A stretch of DNA of 64,000 nucleotides from Mugil cephalus (lineage: Eukaryota; Chordata; Actinopteri; Mugiliformes; Mugilidae). Below the pieces are notes generated by a model. That model was given only the letters and a program-made list of their open reading frames with translations. It had not been told where the DNA came from and searched no databases. Made by a program: the position numbers and the translations under genes. This document shows positions 24,893-60,364 of this stretch, one piece after another (the first letter of the stretch is position 1; each line of letters begins with the position of its first letter). The stretch covers positions 2,482,326 to 2,546,325 of the forward strand of contig NC_061788.1 of assembly GCF_022458985.1 (NCBI RefSeq). The letters run 5' to 3'.

Positions 24893-26771
<1,879 letters not shown>

Positions 26772-28165: not shown

Positions 28166-28931
28166 CTCTGATGTCTTTCTAAACGAGTGTGATGAGTTTA
28201 TAGTGGCCTGAAGAGAAAGAGCTCGAAGGGTTTAAATATTAATTGCTCCATTTCGTTGCAGTAGCACTCGGAGCTGAGCTGCTGCTGTCGCTTCTTTTTC
28301 CTGTGTGAATCAGAATCAGAATCAGAAATACTGAATCAGACTAGAAAAGCTTCTAGTAATAACCATGAATCAGCTCCGTGATGTACATGAAGTGCTGCTA
28401 CATCAGCATTTCTATATTATTTGACTATGCTGCATTTATTTGATGAGTAAAAGTTACTCAACAGATTTTCATTTAGTAAAATAACTTTTTTAAAGACTGT
28501 AGAATCTAAAAACCCAAATTAGCTTCACATAGAAACATACTGTGCTTATATAGTTGCACCAGAAATATGTATGTTACTTTATGCCATATCACCATGAAAT
28601 ATCATTCATTTTTAATCTATATTAGTAGTGTGGACTGCAAACTCAGTATTTTGACATATATTTTTGAGCTATGGTCATATGTTCAAAAGTGCCATATCTC
28701 AAAAAGTATAAAAACCACAGCCTAGATATTTGTATATATAATGTGTAATGCAACTTTGTGTATCTTCCAAATTAAATCACCAGCTATGGTTAGAAAACAG
28801 GTTCAAAATGAGAAATTAAGGATTTTATTGTCTACTACTACAGCATATGTATGAAGGTGAGACAAGGGGAGAAGAGAGTAGCAAATTAATTCATACAGAA
28901 ATCCAGATAAAACAAAAACATGCAACATGAA

Positions 28932-29029: not shown

Positions 29030-29315
29030 TATGTGTATAAATTTGTAATTTACAGCAGTTTAAAGCAATATTTAACCATAACTTTAACGACTGGCAGAAC
29101 AAATCTGCTCAGAAATATGTCGACTGTCAATCTACTCGATAAATTATGAAAGAAAATACCCTCACACAGATGATTTCATAAAAACATTTACTTTAAATTG
29201 TGACGGAATCTACGGCCAAAGTTGTGTCGATTTAGTGATTCATAAAAATGGAAATAAATACAAAAGAAAGGAAGTGTCGACTGAGGCTGTGTGGGTGGTT
29301 GACGGGATGGAAAAA

Positions 29316-29600
29316 CAAAAAAAAAGGAAAAAGAAAAAAAGGCAAAAAAGGAAAAAAGTTAAAAAAGAAAAAGAAAAAAGGGGAAAAAAGAGAAAAAGGA
29401 AAAAAAGTTAAAAAAGAAAAAGAAAAAAGGGGAAAAAAGAGAAAAAGGAAAAAAGTTAAAAAAGAAAAAAGGGAAAGAAAAAAGAGAAAAAGGAAAAAAG
29501 TTAAAAAAGAAAAAAAAGGGAAAGAAAATAGAGAAAAAGGAAAAAAGTTAAAAAAAAGAAAAAGAAAAAAGGGGGGAAAGAAAAAAGGGGAAAAATGAAA
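29316..29600. repeat. A/G-rich minisatellite (GGAAAAAAGTTAAAAAAG type)
   Basis: Repeating blocks of G(A)n joined by GTTAAAAAAG at about 29359, 29408, 29454, 29499 and 29547, so the period is about 45-50 bases. A lysine-rich frame through it and a Phe/Leu/Ser frame on the other strand are products of composition. It ends about 225 bases before the start codon of the 794-codon ORF. Confidence 0.9.
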
Positions 29601-29644
29601 AAGAATTCTGAGTGGCTGGCGTTTCCGCGGGAACATACATCAAA

Positions 29645-29659
29645 GGAACATTCTAGAAC
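29645..29659 (+). promoter_or_regulatory. Perfect three-unit heat-shock element
   Basis: GGAACATTCTAGAAC fits the HSF-binding consensus nGAAnnTTCnnGAAn at every fixed position. It lies 166 bases upstream of the ATG of the intronless 794-codon ORF. A related TTCCGCGGGAAC palindrome is 21 bases further upstream. A match to the nine fixed bases is expected about 0.5 times by chance in a window this size on both strands, so position is the main argument. Confidence 0.45.
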
Positions 29660-29768
29660 ATGAGCCTTTGATATCATGATATATCTTTAATAGAACATAA
29701 TCAGCAGGACAGAAAAACACTGTTCCATTATACAAAGTAGAGTTTACAGAACTTACAGAAAGAAACCG

Positions 29769-29777
29769 TATTTAATA
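29769..29777 (+). promoter_or_regulatory. TATA-like element upstream of the 794-codon ORF
   Basis: TATTTAATA lies 49 bases before the ATG at 29826 and about 110 bases after the heat-shock element. This would allow a very short 5' leader. The sequence is weak and AT-rich matches are common here. Confidence 0.25.
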
Positions 29778-29825
29778 CACTTCACTCGATTATATTTCTC
29801 GTCTCTTCTCCATTTTCATCTCGCA

Positions 29826-32210
29826 ATGGTTCGACTAACATCCGAGATAATCTGTGAATTCCCGCTCATCACATCAGCGACCGTCCGTCCGCTGGTCGCC
29901 ACGTCCCTGGAGAAGTTGAGCCCGGGTCAGTGGAGGATGATCGCGGTCGGAGAACCGGACTCTTTAACCAGGACGGTTCTGGCAGACATGTGTATGAAAA
30001 TCGTCCAGTCCGTCTCCGAAGTCGTCCTCAGTGCAGTGATGCCGGTGATGTATCGACACGTCGCCAGGACCAGCTCAGAGGATCCTCTCTCGCCTGAATT
30101 ATTCGGCGTTTCAGAGGAACGCATTCACACCTGCTTGGGAAACTCAATTGTGCGGAGTTTCACCGAGGTTTTACAGGTTGAACGGCAGCACTCTGCGTAT
30201 TCAGAGTACCTGACCCAGCTGGTAACCAAAGAGGTGGTGCTGAAGGTTCATTTTGTCCTTTCAGTGGCTCTTAAAACCCCTGTTTCACCATCGCACATGC
30301 CAGTATTTTTTATCAGCAGCACTGTATCCTACACCAGCGCTCTGGACGACATGGTGGCGTGCACCATCAGGATACTGAGTGAATGCTTTGCCAGGATGGA
30401 GCACTTGTCTCGGCAAAACTTTGCCAGGATTAAGTTGGAGGGGGTCCAAACTCTGGATATGCTGGCTACTCAGACTGAGCCAGAACCACAAGACGTGCTA
30501 CCCATAGGGAGTTATAGCTGTGCATTAATTTCACCAGTAACTCCAGTAGAAGTCGTGTCTCCAGACCAGATGTCGTCAGCCCTGCATACGAGTCCAGAGC
30601 TACACAAAGAGTCGGTCGTAGCCACTCAGCCTCATCACATAATGTCTTTAACACGAGCTCCGTCTGTGGTGCAAACACTCAGTGAACCACGGGAGTTAGC
30701 GTCAGACTGCTTTGTTTTTGTGGCCACCGAGGCCGTGAGCGAAATCCTTGACAAGTACTCCACACTGTTGTCAGGTGGCGCCGCGCAGCCGCTCAAAACC
30801 GTCCTCCTGACTCGCGCCGTCGCGGCCAACATCGTCGCCCAAGCCCTGCAGAGTTTTCACTACGCCAGCGCTGCCAGTCACAAGCCAGCGTCCACTGGTA
30901 ACGTCCAGCTGACTCCGTACTTGAGTTCAAGTTCGCTGGTGAGTTTGCTGAAGGCCTTTTTCGCCTCGCGCTCTCCGTCCTCTCGAGACGCCTCTCCAGT
31001 CGGTCGATGCCGAGGGTTTGCCAGAGAACTCATGTGTCGCATTGTGAAGGAGCTCAAGAGCAAGATGAATAAGCCACTGACAGAGGTTCCTGTGATTATC
31101 AGCCCCCCATCGCCTCCATCACAGACATCATCAACAACAACGCATGAGTGGGATTCTTTGCCAGGTGTTGTAGAGGACTCTCCCATGTCCTCGCCTGAGG
31201 CTTTTGCCACGATCAGGACCTCAATAAGTGACACAAGTGATCTGCAGTCTCCTCAGGACAGTGAAGACAGCATGCAGACAGTCATGGACGATGTCGATGG
31301 TCTGCTGGAGGACGTATTCCTACCTCAGACAACGCCGTGCGCTTCACCTGTCAACAAACACTCAGAAAGTATCTTTGACGTCAGTGAAGTTGGCAAATTC
31401 ACCAAAAAGCTCACGGAAAGCGTTTATCATCATTTAATGTGCGGGAAGACTTATCAGATTCCCACGGTTCCAGAGGGGCAGCTACTGTCGGACGCGGCCA
31501 TATACGGGGTCAAACGGGAGGAGGAGCTATCGCCCGTCACGTCACCTGAACTTTCCTACGTCATGACGGAAGATGCGGTCAGGAGTTTCTTGCAGCAGGT
31601 GCAACTCTGGTTGAGAAATGAGTCCGTGAGCCACGTTGATCGAGTGTCTGTAGCACTGACTGACATTGAGGAGGTCTTGTCAAATATACTGGCCAGTCCA
31701 GAGGAAGGTGATACGACACCAAACACAGACAAGAACTACGGAGGCGCTGAGATTCAAAAACTGCTCCAGAAGCTGCTAAAACACACTGTTGAAGCCACAC
31801 AAATACAACTGAGTCATGTGGAGCGTAGCGACGCTGTTAACCGTCTTACACGGAAGACACTTGCAGAAATCAAACGTAGCGGCGTCCTCATAATCAACCC
31901 CGAGGCTCTAGACACAGACGATGCCCTTTATGGTTTGTTTGGCGACCTCTTGGACAAGTTTGGCTCGGTGAGTTTGCTTCTGTCCGCAATGATGTCACAT
32001 AACGAGGGTTTGGACGAGGTGTTCGTCAAGGCTCTGATGGCTCGTTTGCACAGGGTAAAATCACTCCCACTGGAAACTATCGCCATGAAGAAAATACCTT
32101 GTCCTCAGCGTTCAACAACACAAACGTGCGTAGTCTGTAGGTTTTTCTCATCCGTGGCCAAATCAACCAGCAAGCCCTTCTCTGCCTGCTTCCAGTGTTT
32201 CAGCAAATAA
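29826..32210 (+). CDS. Unrecognised intronless gene, 794 aa, helical modules and CxxC tail
   Basis: One uninterrupted frame of 794 codons, more GC-rich than its flanks and free of repeats. I do not recognise the protein. It looks like a string of helical modules with a loose F/L-(A/T)-(R/K)-x-L pattern: YLTQLVTKEVVLKV (about 128), LLTRAVAANIVAQAL (327), FARELMCRIVKELKSKM (398) and FTKKLTESVYHHLM (525). These are separated by low-complexity Ser/Thr/Pro linkers (415-475, many SP pairs) and an acidic patch (478-497). The end carries four cysteines as two CxxC pairs (768/771 and 788/791), which could bind zinc or be lipid-modified. No signal peptide or membrane segment is evident. A poly(A) signal follows at 32493. 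The ATG at 29826 is the first in this frame I can support; an upstream exon cannot be excluded. It lies between tmed2 and ddx55, where I know of no mammalian gene. It may be a lineage-specific gene or a retrocopy. Confidence 0.7.
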   Translation: MVRLTSEIICEFPLITSATVRPLVATSLEKLSPGQWRMIAVGEPDSLTRTVLADMCMKIVQSVSEVVLSAVMPVMYRHVARTSSEDPLSPELFGVSEERIHTCLGNSIVRSFTEVLQVERQHSAYSEYLTQLVTKEVVLKVHFVLSVALKTPVSPSHMPVFFISSTVSYTSALDDMVACTIRILSECFARMEHLSRQNFARIKLEGVQTLDMLATQTEPEPQDVLPIGSYSCALISPVTPVEVVSPDQMSSALHTSPELHKESVVATQPHHIMSLTRAPSVVQTLSEPRELASDCFVFVATEAVSEILDKYSTLLSGGAAQPLKTVLLTRAVAANIVAQALQSFHYASAASHKPASTGNVQLTPYLSSSSLVSLLKAFFASRSPSSRDASPVGRCRGFARELMCRIVKELKSKMNKPLTEVPVIISPPSPPSQTSSTTTHEWDSLPGVVEDSPMSSPEAFATIRTSISDTSDLQSPQDSEDSMQTVMDDVDGLLEDVFLPQTTPCASPVNKHSESIFDVSEVGKFTKKLTESVYHHLMCGKTYQIPTVPEGQLLSDAAIYGVKREEELSPVTSPELSYVMTEDAVRSFLQQVQLWLRNESVSHVDRVSVALTDIEEVLSNILASPEEGDTTPNTDKNYGGAEIQKLLQKLLKHTVEATQIQLSHVERSDAVNRLTRKTLAEIKRSGVLIINPEALDTDDALYGLFGDLLDKFGSVSLLLSAMMSHNEGLDEVFVKALMARLHRVKSLPLETIAMKKIPCPQRSTTQTCVVCRFFSSVAKSTSKPFSACFQCFSK

Positions 32211-32492
32211 CATCCCAACACACTTTTCCTTTCCTAAACCTTAGGAACCTTACCCATGTCTTTACCCCTTTAACCCCCTGTCCCGCTTTTCTTTACTAAC
32301 ATATTGCATCAACCCCAAACTTTCCAAGGTTATTTTAATTAACTGACAGTTAATATTTGTTTTTTCTCCCCCTTCTCCCTTTATTATTCATATAATGTTA
32401 ATTAATCACTTAACACTGATTTATTAACCCCACTTCCTGTCTATCACATTGCATTAACTGTACTTCCTTTACTTTCTACTGACAGATTAACA

Positions 32493-32498
32493 AATAAA
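32493..32498 (+). terminator. Poly(A) signal of the intronless ORF
   Basis: AATAAA 283 bases after the TAA at 32208-32210, within pyrimidine-rich and AT-rich non-coding sequence. It is followed within 300 bases by the ddx55 promoter region. Confidence 0.55.
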
Positions 32499-32899
32499 CG
32501 TACTTGTATACTTCAATTAACGAAATGCTTTAATTACTTTTTCATGGCACTCGAGGTCCTCCATACATTTAATACACAAATTGTATTTTTTTGATTCTGG
32601 TACTTTAATTTAAATGACTATGTTTCTAATTTTAACTTTAATTAGACAAAACATTTAATATAGTAATTTAGTGTGTTAAGGGCGAGGTAAAGATAAAAAA
32701 AAAGAAAAAAGAACTAATAATAAAGAATAAAATTATAATAACAACACGGTGATGCGGAACGATTGACGTCTGAAAGCTTCAGTTCCCACCCGACGGGTAA
32801 ACACCAGCGCACAGGGATATCAGAGCAGCGTGTGTGAGTGGCTAAAATCTCGCTGAGAGTTTAAAGCTTAAAACTCGTGTTTCATGTTTAGGTGACAAC

Positions 32900-38699
<5,800 letters not shown>

Positions 38700-38740: not shown

Positions 38741-41655
38741 TTATAAATAAAGTTTGATGAGTTCGTCGCTAACGGCCGACGGGGTGAGGACGCCCAGGTC
38801 GGTGAAGAGGAGGGTGATGAGGGAGGGAGGCGTGTAGTCGATCATCGGATGCTCCTCCGACAGGTTCTGCACCGTCTTCAGGGTGTCGGCTTTGTACTGA
38901 GGAAAAAACACTTGTAAATAAAATAACTCACAAATAAAATAAATAAAAACAGAATAAAATACAAAATACCTTGAATTTATCTGGGACGTCCTGCTGGTTG
39001 AGCGGATACAGACGCACGAATTTAAAACTCTCGGCCACGACGTAGAAGGGTTTATTATGAGCTTTGGAGCAGACGGCCATCTGATAGGTACCGATCTGGA
39101 GGGTGGGAGGAAGAGGGAGGAGAGCCGTTACCATGGAGACGGGGGACTCAGGTGATGAGAGTTTGCATCAAATTGATGAAGAGGAGGAGAATAAAACGTG
39201 AAAAGGAGAAAAATAAAGAGGAGAAACAGGGTCCCGACTATTTCCTGGAACGCACCTTGTTAATGATTCCTCCGCTCTCCACGACTCCTTCTGCTCCAAC
39301 GATAACCAGATCCACTTTCTCCAAGACGTACCTGCAAATTAATTAATTAATTAATTAGTTAATTAAAATTCTTCTTATTAATTGTCTATACAATAATAAA
39401 ACCAAACGTTATTTACCCGACGGCTGCGTCCAGGACGACTGTTACTGGAACATTGAGTTTCTTCAGGGCCTCGGCCATTTGTTGTCTGAACAAAGAGACG
39501 GGTCAGTGAGGCCTTTCAGAATAAGAGTCTACTACTATAAAAGTCCAGTAAGTCATTTTAGAATAAAAGTCCACTACCTAAAAGTCCAGTGTGTCCTTTC
39601 AGAATAAGAGTCTACTACTATACAAGTTCAGTGTGTCCTTTCAGAATAAAAGTCTACCACTGTAAAAGTCCAGTGTGTCCTTTTAGAATTAGAGTCCACT
39701 ACTATACAAGTCCAGTGTGTCCTTTCAGAATAAAAGTCTACTACTGTAAAAGTCCAGTGTGTCCTTTCAGAATAAAAGTCTACTACTGTAAAAGTCCAGT
39801 GAGGCCTTTCAGAATAAAAGTCGACTACTATAAAAGTCCAGTGAGTCCTTTCAGAATAAGGGTCTATTACTATAAAAGTCCAGTGTGTCCTTTCAAAATA
39901 GAAGTCTACTACTCTAAAAGTCCAGTGAGGCCTTTCAGAATAAAAGTTCACTACTATAAAAGTCCAGTGTGTCCTTTCAGAATAAAAGTCTACCACTGTA
40001 AAAGTCCAGTGTGTCCTTTTAGAATTAGAGTCCACTACTATACAAGTCCAGTGTGTCCTTTCAGAATAAAAGTCTACTACTATAAAAGTCCAGTGAGTCC
40101 TTTCAGAATAAGGGTCTATTACTATAAAAGTCCAGTGTGTCCTTTCAAAATAGAAGTCTACTACTCTAAAAGTCCAGTGAGGCCTTTCAGAATAAAAGTT
40201 CACTACTATAAAAGTCCAGTGTGTCCTTTCAGAATAAAAGTCTACTACTGTAAAAGTCCAGTGTGTCCTTTCAGAATAAAAGTCTACTACTGTAAAAGTC
40301 CAGTGAGCCATTTCAGAATAAAAGTCTACTACTATAAAAGTCCAGTGGGTCCTTCCAAAATAAGAGTCTACCACTATAAAGTCCAGTGGGTCCTTTCAAA
40401 ATAAAAGTCTACTACTATAAAAGTCCAGTGAGTCCTTTAAGAATAAAAGTTCTACTGTAAAAGTCCAGTGAGTCTTTTCAGAATAAAAGTCTCCTAGAGT
40501 TCTCAGTGTCCACTCACCCAGCGGCGTCCGGCTGAGACTCCGTCACGTAAACAAAGAAGCGTTTCTTCTCGGCGGCGGCTCGTTCCAGGACTCTGAGGAC
40601 GACTCTGGAGAACGAGTGGGTCAGTATTTTCTAAAAGAGGGAAGACGGAGGGAAGAATGAATGCGCCGGCGTTCACAGAGAGAGAGAGAGAGAAGGAAGT
40701 GTGACAGGACGTGAACTCACGGCGCCATCTTTGATGAAGGTGTGACACAGCTTGGCCACTTTGGCCCTGGACATGGAGATCTTCTCCAGGAAAAGTTCTC
40801 CTCGCTCCTCCATCACCTTCTTACAGCGAGACAGGTCCTGGAAACGAGGAACCAAACACACACCGATTAAAGAAACAAAAAATAAGACACAAAATGACCA
40901 TAAAAGGACAGTAAATGTCCAAAAATGAATAATGAACAGAGACAGATCTATGTGAGCAGACGTGGCTGATGGTGCGTTCACTGACCTGTTGCTCCAGGGA
41001 CGTGAGGCTGATGAAGCGCAGGAAGAGCTCCCCCCCTGAGGACACGGCCACCGAGGAGTCGACCCCCATCAGACAGTCGGTGGCCGACATCAGACTCTCC
41101 CTCAGACCCAGGATGGTCTCACCTGAGGAACCAAGAGACGGGAGACGTCCATGTGGGGTTCAAAGACAGCCATAACATTATGACCACTGACAGGTGACGT
41201 TAATGATGCTGATAACCTGGCTCCTCTCAGTGGGTGGGATATAGGGGGAGAAGGAGGAGGAGGAGGAGGGAGATAATGAAAAGGAAGAAGAGGAGGAGGC
41301 GAGGGAAGAAAAGGAGACATAGGAATAAGAGGAAAAGGAGGTGGAGGAAGGAGATAATGAAAAGGAAGAAGAGGAGAAGATGGAGGAAGAGGACATAGAA
41401 TAAAGACCAGACACAGGTGGATGTGTAGAGGATGGAGACAGGTTTAAACGCACCTTTGTCTCTCTTGAGGAACTCCAGCAGGGTGCGGATAGCGGCCACA
41501 GCTGAGGCCATGTCCGGGTCCTTCCTCATCTGAGCCCTGAAATACTCCACCAGCTCTGAAACCGGGGACACCCCGAGACCCGGTTAACGTCCCCGACCAC
41601 AACCCGAGACAAGAACCGTGACACACGACAACAAAAACTCACCTCCTTCATTCAT
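38741..41655 (-). CDS. eif2b1: Translation initiation factor eIF2B subunit alpha
   Basis: eIF2B alpha is a regulatory subunit of the cytosolic GEF that recharges eIF2 with GTP; it senses phosphorylated eIF2. Exons in transcript order: 41643-41655, 41454-41555, 40986-41122, 40721-40837, 40518-40630, 39417-39485, 39256-39331, 38970-39095, 38741-38896. They sum to 909 bases, 302 aa (human 305). The N-terminal helical domain contains [18 protein letters not shown]. The Rossmann-like domain contains [42 protein letters not shown] and [11 protein letters not shown]. The end is [11 protein letters not shown], identical to mammals. The first coding exon is only 13 bases (ATGAATGAAGGAG), so the start is the least certain part. 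A large 42-bp tandem array fills the intron between the exons at 39417 and 40518. Position 136 region has GAKIL where human has GATIL. Confidence 0.94.
38746..38751 (+). terminator. ddx55: ddx55 poly(A) signal inside the eif2b1 coding region
   Basis: AATAAA 47 bases after the ddx55 stop. On the opposite strand the same bases fall within the last four codons of eif2b1 (encoding KLYL). Confidence 0.65.
39502..40497. repeat. 42-bp tandem array, about 23 units, in an eif2b1 intron
   Basis: Each unit contains GTCCAGTGTGTCCTTTCAG then AATAAAAGTCTACTACT and TATAAAA. Because 42 is a multiple of three, frames stay open on both strands: 271 codons forward, 248 reverse. Each gives a 14-residue repeat. 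A block of about six units is duplicated (units with GAATAAGGGTCTATTAC, then CAAAATAGAAGTC, then AATAAAAGTTCAC occur at about 39858 and 40110). It lies between eif2b1 coding exons and is not part of either neighbouring exon's frame. Confidence 0.92.
41167..41213. mobile_element. MITE-like dispersed element, fragment copy 3
   Basis: CAGCCATAACATTATGACC then ACTGACAGG matches one end of the elements at 12692 and 28932. Only this end is present, in an eif2b1 intron next to a GGAGGAA-rich stretch (41245-41395). Confidence 0.55.
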
Positions 41656-55639: not shown

Positions 55640-58600
55640 CTAGAAGGTCTGGTCGTCGTTGCAGGACTCGGTGGCGTGACCGAAGGCCTCGCAGATGTCG
55701 CAGTAGGGCCTCTCGTCGGCCGGGTTGCCGTGGTAGGTGGTGTGGGGGACGGAGTCGGGGCTCTGGGCCTGGGTGGGACAGTCCTCGGTGTCGTGGAGGT
55801 CGAAGCAGTCGCAGATGTCGCAGAAGAGACGAGGCGTCGCCTTCTTCTCACGCTTCGACACGACTTCATCGAATCTACAAAGAAAGACGAGACACAGACG
55901 ATGACGGACGACGTTACACATACAATAAACTACGCTACAGCAGGTTAGCACAAATTAGCATAAAGTCTAGAAACAAGACGCTTAAAGAACAGTAACAGTC
56001 ATCAGAGACTAGTTTCAAACTAAATGTCTCTGATTAGTTGGAGGATGATCTTATTTTATTTTATTCTCTGGATCTGATAAGACGTAGCCTGACTAAACTA
56101 CACTTTATTTGCTAGAATATTCTTAAAAGGTGTATTTTGAGGTTGTAGATCAATTATAGGCTCATGTTCTGATATTAACGGGCTAAAAGGAGCTAGCTAT
56201 GAAGACAGAAACTCTAAATGTGCCTCTCACTGGTTTAAAACCATCTGACTGTTTGAGGCTTTTACCCGTCGGTGCCGTCGTTGCCGTTGAACTCGGCCAG
56301 AGCGAGTTTCTTCAGTTTGATCTTCAGCTCCTCGTTCTTTCTCTGCAGGTCGACGATCACACTGTTCAGGAAGTTGATCTGAAGGAGACGATCAGGAAAG
56401 CGTGAGAGCTGAAACCAAGCCTTAAAGACAGAATATATAAACATGAACGGTTACTTCTAGACTCACCTGCCCCTCAGCGAACTCCTTCTCCTCCCTCAGC
56501 TGCTCCAGAGCTGCGTTGCCTTCAGGGAACGAACCATAAAACAGAAAATATTTCAGCCAATATTTATCGACAGAACTCAGACGTTAACGACGGAGCAGAA
56601 TCATCTCCACACCTGAGGAAGGAGCTTCCACGTCTTCTCCCTCTGAGGTTCCCATGAGCCTTTGCTCCAGACTCTGGACTCGGCTCTGCAGCTGAACCTT
56701 GTCTCTCTCCAGCGTCTCCACGGCCGACTGCAGCGTCTTGGCCACGGCGTTTTCTCCTCGCAGCACCGCGATCTGCAGCGACAGGGACGCCACATTAATA
56801 CATAATACTCCACAAACCCCCCGAGGGTTCACAGGGACACCAGGGACAGAGACATGTGGGACTACCTCATTCCTCAGAGTTTCCAGTTCCCGGTCTTTTT
56901 CTGAGATCAAAGCTCCAGTGGATTTCTGGAAGTTTCCGTCTCCCTCTGGTTCCTGGTTGGTGATGGTTTCTCTGCAGAAACATGAGACATTTATGTTGCA
57001 GCTTCATGGAGAATGAACCATGGAGGGTTAGACACTTAAAAGTGTTTTTGTTTCTCCCTGTTTTAAAGCATTCATTTAATCCTGGGTCACGTTCAGTTAG
57101 TTTTTCCCTGGGTTTTGCCTCACAGGCTCCATATAGATATAAAAACCAGCCATCTACTCTAACATCATCCTTTTTTTCATTATAAATAAATACAAATAGT
57201 TTATTATTTTACAAAAAATTAAATTTATCAAATTTATCAGTTTATTTCTAATGTGTTATTGAGTTGGTTAAAGGTGCAGCATTGAGTTTAAATAAAATCA
57301 TATAAAGTTTTGTGCATCTTTGTGCATCATAAAACATTTATAACCCCCCAACAAGGAGTCACGAACACGACAGGACAATGGATCACATCAACTTTACATT
57401 GTGCAAAAGATAAATAAACCATAAAACCATGAAAAAAAAAAATATATATTTAACATTGAGCAGTGGGAGAGATGTGACTTTTCACTGTTTGAATTAAAAC
57501 AAAGCTGAGAATAACTGGTTTAAATTGTTCTCCTTGAACACAAAGTGGATTCTGCAGCAGACGTCTGTCGTTTATGAAGCGTCTACGAGTAAAAGTTAAA
57601 TTTCTAGAGTTTCTTACCTGGTCTTCATGTCCGGCTGCTGATTGTTGTCTTCATTGTGCTGAGAGACGAACAAACACAGATATAGAAGCATTTAAATAGC
57701 GGCTAAACCCGTCTGAGCTCGTTGAGTTCGGTCGCAGCAGGAGGTCAAACCTCGCTCTGACAAAACCTATTAATCAAGTCATCTTTTCTGGCTTCGCCTT
57801 AACCCCCCCGATCCACAACAGGACGAGGGAAATCATTTACACAACGTGAAATCTGGAAAGGTCAGTACCTCATCATCAAGACGTTGGGAGTTCTGGGAGG
57901 CCAGCTTCAGCTCCTCGCTGAGGGAGAAAGGAAAGAAGTGACACATTTAAGTCAAGAAGTGATTTCTGTGTCAGGATCGTTGCTATCGGCTTAAATCCAG
58001 AACCATGTTCATGATCTGTTACATGTCTTTGCTTCTGAAGTTCATGCAAGTAAAAGTTGCTAAAGTCAAGAGCTACTATTAGCTGAGACGCTAGGAAGAA
58101 ATAATATTAACTACAGTTAGCTTAGAGGCTAGGAAGCTAGGAAGAGCTACTGTTAGCTGAGAGGCTAGGAAGAGCTACTGTTGGTGAGAGGCTAGGATGC
58201 TAGGAAGAGCTAATATTAGTTGGGAGGCTAGGAAGCTAGGAAAAGCTGCTGTTGCTGAGATGATGGGAAGCTAGGCAGTGCTACCATTAGCTAAGAGGCT
58301 AGGAAGCTAGGAAGAGCTACTATTAGCTAAGAGGATGGGAAGAGCTACCATTAGCTGAGAGGCTAGGAAGAGCTACTATTAGCTGAGAGGCTAGGAGGCT
58401 AGGAAGAGTTACTATTAGCTGAGAGACTAGGAAGCTAGGAAGAGATACTATTAGTTGGGAGGCTAGGAAGCGCTACCATTAGCTGAGAGGCTAGGAGGCT
58501 AGGAAGAGTTACTATTAGCTGAGAGACTAGGAAGCTAGGAAGAGTTACTATTAGCTGAGAGGATAGGAAGCTAGGAAGAGCTACTATTAGTTGGGAGGCT

Positions 58601-60364
58601 AGGAAGCGCTACCATTAGCTGAGAGGCTAGGAGGCTAGGAAGAGTTACTATTAGCTGAGAGACTAGGAAGCTAGGAAGAGCTACTATTAGTTGGGAGGCT
58701 AGGAAGCGCTACCATTAGCTGAGAGGTTAGGATGCTAGGAAGAGCTACTGTTAGCTCAGAGGCTGGGAAGGACTACTATTAGCTGCGAGGATGGGAGGCT
58801 AGGAAGCCAGGAAGAACTAGGGTTAGCTGAGATGAGGGGACGCTAGGCAGTGCTACCATTAGCTAAGAGGCTAGGAAGCTAGGAAGAGCTATTCTTGAAA
58901 GACTTCCAAATAAATAAAGTTAGACTGATTCCTTCTTGACATGCTAAGTTTTAAGTCTGCGTACGTTTTAACTCAGCGTACGTTTTAACTCAGCGTACGT
59001 TTTAAGTCTGCGTACGTTGTAACTCTGATCTGTGAGATGAAGTCGCGGTGGAGACAGACTCTGAGAACGTATGAACGTGGATATTTTTAGATGCTGACTT
59101 TGTTGGAGTTTAGCCCCATGTGGGTCGTTCGTAGGGAAGATCTGCAGCTGTGTGACTAATCGTCCGTCTGAGCCTCATCGGGCTGAAATATTCAGCTGGA
59201 TAATCACATTCACCGAGGCTCTTTAACACCTTCACGCTAACGCAGCACAGACAAGGAGGAGCAGCTCCACACTGATCAAACCTCCTGCAGCATCAGGAGG
59301 AACAGGAACATGGAGGCCTCCTCCTCCTCCTCCTCCTCCTCCTCCTCCATGTTGGCCCTCGTCTTTTTCTCCTCTTTTGTTTTTGCCTTCTCCTTCCCCT
59401 CATCGCCTCCTTCTCTTCCTCCCTCTTCTTCTCATCCTTCTCCTTGTCTGTCTACTCTTCTTCTTCTCCTCTTTCTGCTCCTCCTCCCTTATCCTCCTTC
59501 CTCTTCTTCTCCTCCTTCTCCTCCTCCCCCCTCTTCTCCTCTTTCTGCTCCTCCTTCTTCCACCCTTATCCTTCTCTTCTATCCCCCTTTCTCCTCTCCC
59601 TCCCCTCCCTCCTCTTCCTCCTCCCTCTTCTTCTCCCCTTTTCCTCTTCCTCCCCCTTGTCATCCTCCTCCTTGTTTTCCTCTTCCTCCCCCTCCTCTAC
59701 CCTCTTCTTTTCCTACTCCTTCTCTCTCTTTGTCACTTTCTCCTTTTTGTCCTCCTTCTTTCTCTCCTCTTTGACTCCCCCCATCCCTCTCCCCCTCCCC
59801 TCCCTCCTCTCCTCCTCCTCCTCCTCCTCTTTCAGCTCCTCCTTCTTCTTCCCCCCTTATCCTCCTCTTCTTTCCCCCATCCCTCCTCTCCTTCTCCTCC
59901 TCCTCGTTGGCCCACATCTTTTTCTCCTCTTTTGTTTTTGCCTTCTCCTTCCCCTCATCTCCTCCTCCTTCTCTTCCTCCCTCTTCTTCTCATCCTTCTC
60001 CTTCTTCTCCTCCTTCTCCTTGTCTGTCTACTCTTCTTCTTCTTCTCCTTTCTGCTCCTCCTCCCTCTCCTCCTCTTTCTGCTCCTCCTCTTCTTTCCCC
60101 CTTTCTCCTCTCCTCCTCCTCCTCCTTTGCCCCTTATCCTCCTCTTCTTTCCCTCCTCTCCTCCTCCTCCTCCTCCTCCTCCTCCTCCTCCAGTGAACCA
60201 GGCTGTAGAAACTTTGATCGGCCTTTAGAGCTTGTGAACGTTCAGTCTCTGAGTTTATTAATAAATGTGGTTTTATTCTTCTTCTATTTGACTGATGGAC
60301 CAAACAGATGCAAACTGGACGTGACCCACAACAGCAGCACAACACAACACAACACACACACACA

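Follow-up and report, generated by a model that had tools for sequence, protein, structure and literature searches.

A probable single-exon protein-coding gene of no recognised family between tmed2 and a DDX55-type helicase gene in Mugil cephalus

Does the long open reading frame (ORF) located between tmed2 and a DDX55-type helicase gene in Mugil cephalus encode a protein, and if so, what kind of gene is it? We analysed it within a window of 64,000 nucleotides (NC_061788.1, positions 2,482,326 to 2,546,325, forward strand), and all coordinates below refer to positions in this window. The first-pass annotation had proposed an intronless frame of 794 codons, and it was recovered with exactly the same coordinates, strand, ATG and TAA. 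The locus comprises the following features:

29826–32210, + strand: single-exon ORF of 794 aa, stop codon included (frame, codon and periodicity analysis)
29694–29825, + strand: in-frame open stretch without ATG, probably 5' UTR or promoter, as we infer
32493–32498, + strand: AATAAA polyadenylation signal (sequence scan)

The ORF starts with the ATG at 29826 and ends with the TAA at 32208–32210. Its reading frame is already open from 29694 but contains no ATG until 29826, where the start codon has a good context (gcaATGG). As a guess, the TATTTAA at 29769 may serve as a TATA-like element. Past the stop codon, the AATAAA at 32493 was found at the claimed distance of 283 bases. Among the 18 complete frames of at least 150 aa in the window, this ORF was the longest, the runner-up being a low-complexity frame of 291 aa, which bears out its earlier description as a 2.4-kb frame that stands out. 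Separately, a purine-rich tract of about 300 bases (GAAAAA/AAAAGG, 29309–29602) with a higher-order period of 47–49 bases was observed just 5' of the ORF.

The coding potential of the ORF was assessed via its length, three-base periodicity and codon use. When this sequence was shuffled 500 times with its dinucleotides preserved, the longest frame reached 323 codons (mean 146), compared to the 794 observed. The three-base periodicity was 15.4 over the whole ORF. It ranged from 3.1 to 6.8 in the six 600-base windows wholly within the ORF, from 0.1 to 2.0 in the ten wholly outside it, and from 0.2 to 2.5 in the four spanning its borders. The reference for codon use was a set of 16 exon pieces from tmed2, the helicase gene, eif2b1 and ptpn11 in the window, totalling 729 codons. 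The synonymous codon score of the ORF was −0.164, against −0.337 (sd 0.034) for a base-composition null, and none of 1000 random synonymous draws reached it. However, this score was nearly equalled by three of the other frames (−0.175, −0.183, and −0.200), and thus part of the synonymous signal of the ORF reflects composition. The whole-codon score ranked the ORF best of the six frames over the full length (−0.068, next −0.130), but in windows of 300 bases the ORF was the best frame in only seven of 14. Its GC3 was 0.577 versus 0.819 in the reference exons of the neighbouring genes (729 codons). Overall, the ORF looks coding, with a weak codon bias and an only moderate codon signal. Weak codon bias is usual in lowly expressed or fast-evolving genes.

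The ORF also differs from its surroundings in base composition. GC content varied from 0.476 to 0.560 across the ORF (500-base windows, 29750 to 32249), compared to 0.30–0.36 upstream (500-base windows between 28000 and 29749) and 0.29–0.36 downstream (500-base windows between 32250 and 32999), in agreement with the GC enrichment noted earlier. It climbed to 0.44 at 32750–33249, a window containing the first exon of the next gene.

The length of the frame relative to the shuffles (794 codons versus 323), the periodicity, the codon score, the start context and the AATAAA together support a coding gene. We therefore consider it probable that 29826–32210 is a single-exon protein-coding gene, which would be transcribed and translated.

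The location of this gene was confirmed by analysis of its neighbours. Upstream, all three of the submitted TMED2 exons matched the Pfam family EMP24_GP25L (the fourth exon was left out), and the TMED2 exons matched a TMED2 chain in the PDB at 2.5e-36. The tmed2 stop codon is at 26769–26771. Matches to Spb4-type helicases in the PDB (1.2e-10 and 3.1e-9) and to CTE_SPB4, above the cut-off (2.6e-10), identify the gene on the downstream side as an Spb4/DDX55-type helicase; CTT_SPB4 fell narrowly below its own cut-off. The first exon of the helicase, at 32900, and one further piece had no Pfam match. We provisionally call this helicase DDX55, a name suggested by its sequence and by the order of genes in human. 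With this proviso on the name, the proposed position between tmed2 and ddx55 is supported by both the Pfam and PDB matches.

Farther out in the window are pieces of PTPN11, eIF2B-alpha and CLIP1. The CLIP1 zinc-knuckle exon (55643–55954, − strand; Pfam PF16641, E 1.3e-16) places clip1 toward the right end of the window. The window also contains tandem arrays. One, at 39504–40496, repeats a 42-base unit 23.7 times; as this unit is a multiple of three, the array is open on both strands and yields long false frames. Two others, at 37649–38064 and 58068–58891, have 36-base units and by eye look like mutual reverse complements, the former sitting within an intron of the helicase gene. No tRNA or Rfam families were found in the window.

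Of the alternatives to a single-exon gene, the one that survives best, though we regard it as unlikely, is that the ORF belongs to a spliced gene as its large final coding exon, with small 5' exons upstream in the gap between tmed2 and ddx55. Vertebrate genes often have large terminal exons, and a pyrimidine-rich stretch lies immediately upstream of the ATG, with an acceptor-like AG at 29876. However, a crude scan of 29650–29950 picked up no acceptor-like site around the start codon other than this AG, which falls inside the ORF; the ATG has a good context, and no upstream coding exon was recognised when the frames were inspected.

Still less likely is that the ORF arose long ago as a retrocopy, its spliced parent gene lying elsewhere in the genome. 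Consistent with such an origin, it is a single exon amid intron-rich genes, an 11-base direct repeat flanks it (at 29770 and 32567), and an A-rich stretch is present at 32689–32741. The repeat, although the longest exact one, was matched in 33 of 500 shuffles. The interval from the AATAAA at 32493 to the repeat copy at 32567 contains no A-tract, and the A-rich stretch begins only after that copy. An old retrocopy would, for its part, have lost both the poly(A) remnant and the target-site duplication. The retroposition or recent origin suggested by the first-pass annotation found no backing beyond what chance produces.

We next searched for relatives of the predicted protein. Against Pfam, the whole 794-aa protein gave a sole match, PF08066 (E 0.35), under the cut-off. 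The stop-to-stop frame of 838 aa returned this match in the same position (E 0.41), which is expected given the identical sequence. Three pieces of the protein gave other Pfam matches at E 0.077–0.2, all under the cut-off. The whole protein had one PHROGs match (0.24, no significant relative), no NCBIfam match and no match among PDB sequences, where two pieces matched at 0.46–1.3. We dismissed the PF08066, piece-level Pfam, PHROGs and PDB matches as chance. The earlier statement that the protein has no recognisable family agrees with these searches, as neither Pfam, PHROGs and NCBIfam nor the PDB sequences provided a credible match.

Among IMG/VR viral contigs, no relative was detected for the whole protein, its N-terminal 158 aa or its C-terminal 280 aa, in a scan that detects close relatives only and was based on six peptide patterns drawn from the full-length protein plus six per end. 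Prokaryotic genomes, searched from exact peptide patterns and thus likewise for close relatives only, yielded none, nor did phages and plasmids in tblastn searches with E values as high as 1. These results argue only against bacterial, phage or searched-viral relatives at that sensitivity and are silent on relatives in fish. No second copy of the gene was present within the window. Our literature search returned no description of a gene between tmed2 and ddx55, which is no proof of its absence from print.

The same searches bear on the idea that the ORF is a domesticated virus or transposon gene captured as a single exon, with its C-terminal CxxC pairs as a zinc-binding relic, which we find very unlikely. 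The single exon, the base composition and codon use differing from those of the neighbours, and the failure to match cellular families would fit such a capture. Against it, there was no significant Pfam or PHROG match, in collections that are sparse in animal transposons, no IMG/VR relative (close relatives only) and no second copy in the window, and the flanking repeat pairs were short, AT-rich and imperfect. An example is the inverted pair 28234–28257 / 32519–32542 (24 bases, 75%), which is among 25 of 38 inverted pairs shown, without a control. Both this explanation and the retrocopy concern the origin of the ORF and can overlap with a single-exon coding gene. Least likely of all is a decaying pseudogene or chance open frame, for which the codon signal, weaker than in the neighbouring genes, could speak, but 794 stop-free codons against a shuffle maximum of 323 (n = 500) and a periodicity present within the ORF and absent in the flanks speak against it.

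Returning to the single-exon coding gene, we characterized its predicted product. The single-sequence AlphaFold2 model had a mean pLDDT of 36.2 and a pTM of 0.22 and is unusable as a fold. Its helices form three main blocks, the linkers lack structure, and no strand is as long as three residues; this is a hint at most. The regions of the protein are:

29961–30440, + strand: predicted helical block, residues 46–205, very low confidence (AlphaFold2 model)
30441–30689, + strand: Pro-rich linker with four SP/TP sites, residues 206–288 (SP/TP count and AlphaFold2 model)
30690–31064, + strand: predicted helical block, residues 289–413, very low confidence (AlphaFold2 model)
31065–31382, + strand: linker with seven SP/TP sites, its second part acidic, residues 414–519 (SP/TP count and AlphaFold2 model)
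31569–32048, + strand: predicted helical block, residues 582–741, very low confidence (AlphaFold2 model)
32127–32198, + strand: C-terminal tail with CxxC pairs at residues 768–771 and 788–791 (translation)

SP/TP pairs were enriched in the protein (22 observed versus 9.8 expected, sd 2.6), and none of 2000 shuffles reached 22. The two terminal CxxC pairs previously reported were present at residues 768–771 and 788–791, separated by 16 residues (C-x2-C-x16-C-x2-C). The peak 19-residue hydropathy mean was 1.41, which makes a membrane-spanning helix unlikely. The helical repeats claimed earlier could not be substantiated: the best internal self-score was 60, within the null maxima of 46–77 (20 shuffles), and for all six pairs of blocks at least one of 30 shuffles equalled the observed similarity score (1, 8, 1, 28, 11, and 5 of 30). 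As two of the six pairs were reached by just one of 30 shuffles, and the comparison used a single sequence, the protein may contain a very diverged internal repeat.

From its composition and the low-confidence helices, the product might be a cytosolic adaptor or scaffold, in which alpha-helical bundles would be joined by SP/TP-containing linkers. The linkers could be phosphorylated by proline-directed kinases. The Cys-rich C-terminal tail could either bind a zinc ion via C-x2-C-x16-C-x2-C or carry a lipidation anchoring the protein at a membrane. The gene encoding it, situated between tmed2 and ddx55, would have a promoter and a poly(A) signal of its own. We regard the function of a helical Ser/Thr-Pro scaffold with a Cys-rich tail as rather doubtful. 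A tentative suggestion, with the odds against it, is that the gene is the founder of a fish-restricted family characterized by an all-helical domain absent from structure libraries, a fixed tmed2–ddx55 locus and a Ser/Thr-Pro-regulated scaffold role.

Annotated fish genomes contain many "uncharacterized protein" entries of similar general look. The ORF most likely fits as a further member of an already described class in fish, the single-exon orphan genes. According to a zebrafish study, nearly 28% of orphan genes are single-exon versus 6% of conserved genes, and orphan genes are preferentially expressed in reproductive tissue (PMC3599513). The ORF shares with the single-exon orphan and conserved teleost-specific genes of that study a probable single exon and no recognised family. 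At 794 aa, however, it is long, whereas the orphan proteins are described there as shorter on average than conserved ones (PMC3599513). With single-exon genes of the European sea bass, it has in common that it is probably a coding gene free of introns, presumably within a fish genome, but in that report these genes are treated as reverse-transcribed from multi-exon parents, and here there is no known parent (PMC8207432).

The gene would be lineage-restricted within ray-finned fish, one more unnamed gene of this sort. As it stands, it points to no new mechanism and does not look like a new kind of system. If expressed and conserved, it would enlarge the dark part of fish proteomes by one more unnamed protein, and reproductive tissue would be a candidate site of its expression, as reported for zebrafish orphans (PMC3599513).
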